Below, piece after piece: positions 6,006-52,614 of a stretch of 64,000 nucleotides of DNA; position 1 is the first letter of the stretch, and every line of letters begins with the position of its first letter. The DNA is taken from NCBI GenBank assembly GCA_945878555.1, contig CAMDWI010000002.1:124001-188000 (forward strand). The letters are read 5' to 3'. This DNA comes from Klebsiella pneumoniae. Lineage in GTDB: Bacteria > Pseudomonadota > Gammaproteobacteria > Eutrophobiales > Eutrophobiaceae. The position numbers were made by a program, and so were the translations under genes. The notes below the pieces were generated by a model. The model was not told where the DNA came from. It did not search any database and saw nothing but the letters and a program-made list of their open reading frames with translations.

Positions 6006-6023
6006 CTGTGATTCCGGTCACAG
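6006..6023. promoter_or_regulatory. CRP/Vfr-type palindrome, distal site
   Basis: Reads CTGTGATTCCGGTCACAG: a perfect TGTGA-N6-TCACA, the recognition consensus of CRP-family regulators, with the symmetry extending one base further on each side. It lies 49 bases (centre to centre) upstream of a second perfect site. Both flanking genes point toward this gap, so neither coding gene would be served by a promoter here. Confidence 0.6.
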
Positions 6024-6050: not shown

Positions 6051-6076
6051 CATGCTGTGATATGAATCACAGCATG
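6051..6076. promoter_or_regulatory. CRP/Vfr-type palindrome, proximal site
   Basis: A 26-base segment with perfect 11-base inverted arms (CATGCTGTGAT and ATCACAGCATG) around a 4-base centre, containing TGTGA-TATGAA-TCACA. Its centre (6063.5) lies about 41 to 45 bases upstream of the likely start of a candidate small RNA, the placement expected of a class II CRP-dependent promoter. It could also form an RNA hairpin in a fabB read-through transcript, but no U-tract follows it. Confidence 0.6.
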
Positions 6077-6091
6077 CGGACCGGATTCAGC

Positions 6092-6102
6092 TAGTATGTA
6101 AT
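6092..6102 (+). promoter_or_regulatory. Candidate -10 region of the 6105-6183 sRNA
   Basis: The segment TAGTATGTAAT holds two overlapping -10 candidates: TAGTAT (6092-6097, 4 of 6 matches to TATAAT) and TGTAAT (6097-6102, 5 of 6). Either would start transcription at about 6104-6109, just as the first hairpin of the candidate sRNA begins. No good -35 hexamer is seen, as expected if an activator bound at 6051-6076 replaces it. Confidence 0.4.
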
Positions 6103-6104
6103 CA

Positions 6105-6183
6105 GGCTATCGTCCTCCCTTGATAGTCCCGACTGGCCCGGACTCTCCTTCCAACCTCCTCAAATCCGGGCCAATCCTTTTTC
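6105..6183 (+). ncRNA. Candidate small regulatory RNA with C/U-rich (anti-Shine-Dalgarno) loops
   Basis: About 78 bases in the convergent gap between fabB and the DUF3750 gene fold into two stem-loops. Hairpin 1 has a 5-bp stem (CTATC 6107-6111, GATAG 6122-6126) with loop GTCCTCCCTT. Hairpin 2 has a perfect 9-bp stem (TGGCCCGGA 6134-6142, TCCGGGCCA 6165-6173) with a 22-base loop rich in CTCCTT and CCTCCT, followed by a T-run at 6178-6182 that would act as terminator. Loops of this kind, complementary to GGAGG ribosome-binding sites, are known from C-rich-loop sRNAs such as Xanthomonas sX13. Two CRP-type sites and a -10-like element lie just upstream. The simpler alternative is that hairpin 2 is only the fabAB terminator. 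Confidence 0.5.
6134..6182 (+). terminator. Rho-independent terminator (fabAB and/or candidate sRNA)
   Basis: A 9-bp GC-rich perfect stem (6134-6142 with 6165-6173), an unusually long 22-base loop, and five T after a 4-base spacer. It lies 140 bases after the fabB stop. It may terminate the fabAB transcript, a separately transcribed small RNA, or both. Confidence 0.55.
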
Positions 6184-52488: not shown

Positions 52489-52523
52489 AAAAAAACCCGC
52501 ATAAGCTGTCGCTAAAGCAGGCT
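52489..52523 (-). terminator. Attenuator terminator of the metZ leader
   Basis: On the minus strand a hairpin pairs AGCCTGC (52523-52517) with GCGGGTT (52500-52494), allowing G-U pairs, and inside it TTTAGC with GCTTAT around a GACA loop, with two U-U mismatches. The T-tract runs to 52489. Its 5' arm shares CTTTAGC with an alternative 8-bp helix that uses CGCTAAAG (52537-52530), the conserved core of the aptamer. Confidence 0.6.
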
Positions 52524-52579
52524 GGTTCTCTTTAGCGGTATTTTTTAAGCGCCCGCAAGCTGATGTCAAATCGGCGCTG
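52524..52579 (-). promoter_or_regulatory. SAM-II (SAM-alpha)-like riboswitch aptamer upstream of metZ
   Basis: Reading the minus strand, a 6-bp stem P1 (AGCGCC 52578-52573 with GGCGCT 52553-52548) encloses a 19-base loop with GATTTG and GCTTGC. After P1 comes TTAAA and then GCTAAAG (52536-52530), the conserved 3' element. GATTTG, GCTTGC, TTAAA and GCTAAAG in that order and spacing match the SAM-II class as recalled, which binds S-adenosylmethionine and usually controls metX, metZ or metA. The transcript would start at P1 itself. The class is best known from alphaproteobacteria. Confidence 0.75.
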
Positions 52580-52585
52580 GCGTTT

Positions 52586-52614
52586 ACAGTAGATAAACAG
52601 GGTCAGACTGTCAA
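52586..52614 (-). promoter_or_regulatory. metZ promoter
   Basis: On the minus strand TTGACA (52614-52609), a perfect -35, lies 17 bases from TACTGT (52591-52586), a weaker -10. Transcription would start at about 52579, exactly one base before stem P1 of the riboswitch, which supports both calls. Confidence 0.65.

Follow-up and report, generated by a model that had tools for sequence, protein, structure and literature searches.

The window analysed in this study, a stretch of 64,000 nucleotides, carries downstream of fabB a two-hairpin RNA element that is conserved and covaries in relatives, maintains the motifs of both loops, is preceded by CRP boxes and a −10 element in a conserved geometry and stands separate from its neighbouring genes. 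We consider that it is probably the product of a stand-alone gene, a cAMP-CRP-activated, trans-acting anti-Shine-Dalgarno small RNA that would block translation when cAMP is high; its transcription, the binding of CRP, the pairing with ribosome-binding sites (RBS), the sign of the effect and any role of Hfq are what we infer from these features. To judge from the DNA, the predicted RNA gene is common to a gammaproteobacterial order, plus a few families outside it, and constitutes a new family without an Rfam entry. The coordinates are provided in Table 1.

Table 1. Positions of the small RNA, its promoter elements and the engB-linked RNA (plain numbers are window positions)
Feature	Position	Strand	Remarks
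Upstream CRP-type box	6007–6022		TGTGATTCCGGTCACA; perfect half-sites; centre 6014.5
Palindrome around the near CRP box	6051–6076		11-bp perfect arms
Promoter-proximal (near) CRP-type box	6056–6071		TGTGATATGAATCACA; perfect half-site palindrome; centre 6063.5, about −41.5 from the predicted start (class II)
−10 element	6092–6097	+	TAGTAT; family consensus ACTAGACT (TAGACT-like); no conserved −35
Small RNA, about 79 nt	6104–6182	+	Predicted 5′ end 6103–6105; 3′ end is the T-run
Hairpin 1	6105–6128	+	Arms 6105–6112/6121–6128; loop UCCUCCCU at 6113–6120, anti-Shine-Dalgarno-like
Hairpin 2/terminator stem	6134–6173	+	Arms 6134–6142/6165–6173; 22-nt loop CUCUCCUUCCAACCUCCUCAAA at 6143–6164
T-run of the intrinsic terminator	6178–6182	+	TTTTT; four bases 3′ of the hairpin 2 stem
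engB-linked C-loop RNA	L146:1501–1578		Also L130, L145, L134, L139, L149 and L161–L169, among others

Fold, conservation and distribution

The two hairpins, the C/U loops and the T-run that a preliminary description of this DNA had read at 6105–6183 were confirmed by the sequence and by its folding. The segment 6105–6185 folds at −26.5 kcal/mol versus −13.8 ± 2.5 kcal/mol in dinucleotide-shuffled sequences (z −5.1, 0 of 200), and the copy of the nearest relative gave a z of −5.8. The longer first loop given in that description, GTCCTCCCTT, is loop 1 with its innermost pair opened, and both readings refer to the same element. The T-run directly abuts the stem in most relatives, in contrast to the four-base offset of the window, and in relatives the size of the RNA reaches up to about 105 nt. 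Generic scans for sigma-70 promoters and for terminators returned nothing usable at the window RNA, because its promoter lacks a −35 element and its T-run is offset from the stem. A coding reading was disfavoured, given that there is no ATG on the + strand of the RNA.

A nucleotide search with the raw sequence in 58 relatives recovered the window's own copy as the sole match and, therefore, covariance models were needed. In the nearest relative (G003), which belongs to the same genus as the window's genome (G000), the gap downstream of fabB has the same layout as in the window, with the stems changed and the loops kept. The model built from these two sequences (R1) found three further strong copies, in G001, G027 and G028, within the 53-genome family that represents the whole order sampled. 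A second model (R2), built from five sequences, added many more copies, and a third one (R3), built from 28 rows, gave the final distribution. The three models matched the window RNA at 6103–6181, R3 with 62.3 bits (E 1e-12). According to R3, the RNA is present in 31 of the 53 genomes of the order, a count that leaves out the engB-linked matches described below, and also in five genomes of four families outside it: G215 and G047 (f12), G191 (f140), G264 (f92) and G184 (f133). These five copies have the same promoter as those of the order, the weakest matches being those of G264 (E 0.00036) and G184 (E 0.0019). It must be considered that the resulting 36 loci come from related sequences and thus do not represent 36 independent events.

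Two other genomes of the window's genus, G002 and G004, have neither a fabB orthologue nor the RNA, and no convincing match (best E 0.56) came from 80 named proteobacterial loci (547 kb) searched up to about 3 kb from fabB. The window element did not match any of the 4227 Rfam families at gathering or permissive thresholds (E up to 5), and 13 homologous loci likewise gave no match to the Rfam bacterial small RNA families at E up to 2. Two genomes, G001 and G013, carry a further copy of the RNA in tandem (L115:1721–1801, L148:1736–1823); that of G013 has a similar −10 region, CTATAGTTAA, and that of G001 has loops made up of C alone and lacks a CRP box. Additional R2 matches at G000:C15 and G003:C4 were discarded as ordinary terminator hairpins. 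Elsewhere in the window, a SAM-alpha riboswitch (RF00521) was identified above the gathering score at 52511–52587 (− strand).

In an alignment of 27 distinct rows, two-sided changes occurred in 11 of the 14 pairs, 90.8% of the helix cells stayed paired versus 76.7% after shuffling, and the covariation score was 0.467 as compared with 0.213 for shuffled alignments and no more than 0.13 when the partners were slid; the fitting of this alignment to the model favours the structure, and these measures also stood out when applied to five sequences. Helix 1 showed two-sided changes in all six model pairs, and helix 2, which was paired in 98.6% of the cells, in five of its eight pairs. With regard to the loops, CTCC in loop 1 was kept in 33 of the 36 loci and CCTCC in loop 2 in 34 of them (5.4 and 8.2 expected, respectively, from mononucleotide shuffles), a conservation partly selected for since the loops belonged to the covariance models. 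The preliminary description had suggested a covariance search in relatives, which located the two-hairpin structure with conserved loops in these 36 loci, and had considered that loops varying freely beside a kept terminator stem would speak against a small RNA. The opposite was observed, the stems being compensated and the loops retaining CTCC and CCTCC.

CRP-type promoter and genomic neighbourhood

The predicted control by CRP, as deduced from the boxes, was overlooked in the preliminary description. A near CRP box (TGTGAN6TCACA, with at most one mismatch) was present in all 36 primary loci at −30 to −66 from the start of the match, while elsewhere in these loci a single box of this kind appeared in 100,385 positions, a rate of 1e-5 that corresponds to about 0.0004 expected per locus. 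The distance between the centre of the box and that of the TANNNT −10 element was exactly 32 bp in 31 of the 34 class II loci, the exceptions being the window's genome and G003 (31 bp) and G008 (33 bp), and in both genomes of genus g18 the box lies at −61.5 (class I). Boxes at −41.5 and −61.5 occupy the class II and class I positions of E. coli, respectively. The promoter consensus of the family is tTGTGA..t..aTCACAgCa ... ACTAgAcT, with no conserved −35; a TGTGAN6TCACA box centred near −41.5 and a −35 that is weak or absent are the sequence features of class II CRP-dependent promoters, and both are seen here. A second, upstream box was found in 24 of the 36 loci, mostly at 39–43 or 48–52 bp from the near one, distances that correspond to about four and five helical turns. 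Neither the CRP boxes nor the −10 element took part in any covariance model and, thus, they constitute independent evidence. The 5′ end previously placed at 6104–6109 agrees with the −10 and CRP geometry, which predicts it at about 6104. In addition, the palindrome that surrounds the near box could form a hairpin in a read-through transcript, with no U-run after it.

The window's genome encodes both CRP (315 bits, over the NF008732 cut-off) and Hfq. Across the order, 29 genomes had both the RNA and CRP, two had the RNA without detected CRP (these genomes are 76 and 83% complete), 12 had CRP without detected RNA and 10 had neither (Fisher p 0.0017, uncorrected for kinship and mostly due to one clade). 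The seven genomes of genus g15 (G018, G029, G035, and G058–G061) lack both CRP and the RNA, this genus being the exception in an order in which CRP is otherwise nearly universal. The co-occurrence of Hfq and the RNA across genomes gave no signal, and in G067 and G012 the RNA is present and Hfq was not detected. In G003 the near CRP box is degenerate, TGAGACCTGGATCACA, and the crp gene (G003:C1:257640–258248) contains an in-frame TAA, which may reflect gene decay or a sequencing error.

In the window and in G003, the RNA lies on the fabB strand, 110 bp downstream of that gene, and it ends in a terminator stem, as would be expected if it did no more than terminate transcription of the fabAB operon and the additional hairpin were incidental. 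However, in most relatives a gene for a Na+/H+ antiporter, or an ORF of 136 aa without a Pfam match, lies between fabB and the RNA, and both the RNA and its promoter are kept. Shared neighbours connect the loci: the antiporter is also next to the RNA in G191, as in the window's order, and in G184, which maintains the RNA and the promoter without an adjacent fabB, the RNA adjoins ispG, a gene that in the window adjoins fabA. Moreover, hairpin 1, loop 1 and the CRP/−10 module are conserved, and the tandem second copy of G013 has the same kind of −10 element, all of which makes a mere operon terminator very improbable.

A role as 5′ leader or attenuator for the gene that follows would be conceivable in families f12 and f133, given that in G047, G215 and G184 msrB or phhB comes next in the same orientation, 75–175 bp further on; in these two families and in f92, the RNA has msrB or phhB in its surroundings, along with cysG, dcd and mrp. 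In the order, by contrast, 29 of the 31 loci have a convergent gene downstream, encoding DUF3750 in the window and a PBP-like solute-binding protein, an RF-1-domain protein or others elsewhere, and we regard the leader explanation as improbable in the extreme. Because genes intervene upstream and the downstream gene is convergent, the RNA of the order is not just the terminator of fabAB, nor does it serve as a leader. The earlier preference for a promoter-driven small RNA over a fabAB terminator is thus borne out, with intervening genes being common and promoter elements being present at every primary locus.

Proposed mechanism, candidate targets and relation to known RNAs

We propose that cAMP-CRP would bind the box centred about 41.5 bp ahead of the start and would recruit RNA polymerase to the −35-less promoter (class II activation), with a second CRP dimer further upstream possibly helping in many species. 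The transcript would fold as two hairpins, the second of them acting as intrinsic terminator, and its C/U loops (CCUCCC-type and CCUCCUCCCCC-type) may pair with the G-rich Shine-Dalgarno regions of selected mRNAs, whose translation would be blocked at high cAMP.

When the pairing between the loops and the RBS was evaluated across the window genes, none stood out. The prp genes, which had been put forward as possible targets, were not favoured: prpC ranked 29th among the 58 window ORFs, and the annotated start of prpB lacks a GGAGG-like site, its best candidate being an internal GTG with rank 12. At the genome level, AGGGAGG was not enriched before start codons (47 versus 51 for the reversed pattern). 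The start site of sucD, AAGGGAGGAAATTAATCATG, is complementary to loop 1, and sucD and a cupin gene are plausible as the clearest single candidate targets, although nothing marks either of them as real.

The lack of an excess of loop-complementary sites at the start codons of the genome would fit a CRP-activated RNA whose loops mainly bind a protein, sponge another small RNA or target G-rich sites other than the RBS. In this line, the 4G motifs enriched in the Xanthomonas mRNAs repressed by sX13 are not conserved in position (PMC3771888). Nevertheless, CCUCC/CUCCC is the anti-Shine-Dalgarno core itself, and ribosome-binding sites are the place of action of well-characterised C-loop RNAs (PMC5362039; PMC9973317); we consider such other uses of the loops unlikely.

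With respect to its predicted regulation, the window RNA resembles CyaR (RyeE) of Enterobacteriaceae, a CRP-dependent trans-acting small RNA that lowers ribosome binding on ompX (PMC11795201) and that a paper on the anti-Shine-Dalgarno motif CCUCCUCCC mentions alongside the RNAs with such loops (PMC3927594); in the window RNA, the anti-Shine-Dalgarno CTCC and CCTCC are found in the predicted loops. The Rfam model of CyaR (RF00112) matched neither the window (E up to 5) nor the 13 homologous loci (E up to 2) and, unlike CyaR, the window RNA is linked to fabB and carries a C-rich loop on each of its two hairpins. CyaR differs from it in both fold and locus.

Regarding the loops, the likeness is to other RNAs. 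The small structured RNA sX13 of Xanthomonas requires its C-rich loops for the repression of G-rich mRNAs (PMC3771888), and C-rich loops are common to both; however, sX13 (RF02232) has three stem-loops with 4C motifs and is Hfq-independent, whereas the window RNA has two hairpins. Members of the window family did not match the sX13 model, which was matched only by the engB-linked L130, with E 0.35 and below the gathering score. The Neisseria siblings NmsRA/B and NgncR_162/163 obstruct ribosome-binding sites by means of anti-Shine-Dalgarno sequences (PMC5362039, PMC9973317). They form a tandem gene pair with three stem-loops, RelA-linked control and, as targets, the ribosome-binding sites of prpB/prpC and other TCA genes, while here tandem copies appear only in G001 and G013, the window has a single copy with two hairpins and CRP boxes, and the prp sites are poorly complementary to the loops. 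In the CcsR/cuckoo-type RNAs of Alphaproteobacteria, successive hairpins each expose CCUCCUCCC and the stems diverge (PMC3927594), and an RpoH-type promoter drives the DUF1127 transcript that is processed into the CcsR RNAs (PMC10253847). The exposed C/U loops are alike, but the window element is one RNA with its own predicted CRP promoter. Taken at the sequence level, the window RNA is similar to CyaR in its predicted regulation and to sX13, the Neisseria siblings and CcsR in its loops, yet it is a separate family.

A distinct engB-linked RNA and biological meaning

In many gammaproteobacterial families, R2 and R3 also detected a separate C-loop RNA that is convergent with engB and matches the Rfam family anti-hemB (RF02837) below the gathering score. 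The sequence GAACTT was found upstream in 16 of the 21 engB-linked loci (0.01 expected per locus), followed in each case by TC at a spacing of 14–19, as in a sigma-E-type promoter. Two hairpins with C-rich loops are present in both RNAs, but the engB-linked one has engB as its neighbour, a sigma-E-type promoter and no CRP box, whereas the window RNA has fabB as its neighbour and CRP boxes. Several genomes carry both the engB-linked and the window-type RNA. In Pseudomonas, ErsA is under the control of AlgU, a sigma-E homologue (PMC5819304). The engB-linked RNA resembles ErsA in its sigma-E-type promoter and also in its location. Additionally, in other gammaproteobacterial families, L178/L179 (G244, G108, f57) and L158 (G114) contain another short RNA of two hairpins, whose loop 1 is of the CCTCC type and which lacks a CRP box.

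The RNA family described here is absent from Rfam, and in our literature search no CRP-controlled small RNA was found for this lineage; the putative regulator of the family, CRP, can be read straight from the DNA. It is possible, and we suggest it only tentatively, that in non-enteric Gammaproteobacteria cAMP-CRP has an output arm that acts via a deeply conserved anti-Shine-Dalgarno RNA, a counterpart of CyaR with a separate origin. In several genomes this arm would run parallel to the sigma E-driven engB RNA, with carbon hunger and envelope stress leading to the same G-rich ribosome-binding sites through near-identical loops. The conserved box and loops predict that deletion of crp would abolish the RNA, and that changes in the loops would abolish or retarget its action. 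If this were true, CRP-activated anti-Shine-Dalgarno RNAs would have arisen more than once or would be far older than CyaR, and it would become testable whether riboregulation has evolved convergently under a single transcription factor.
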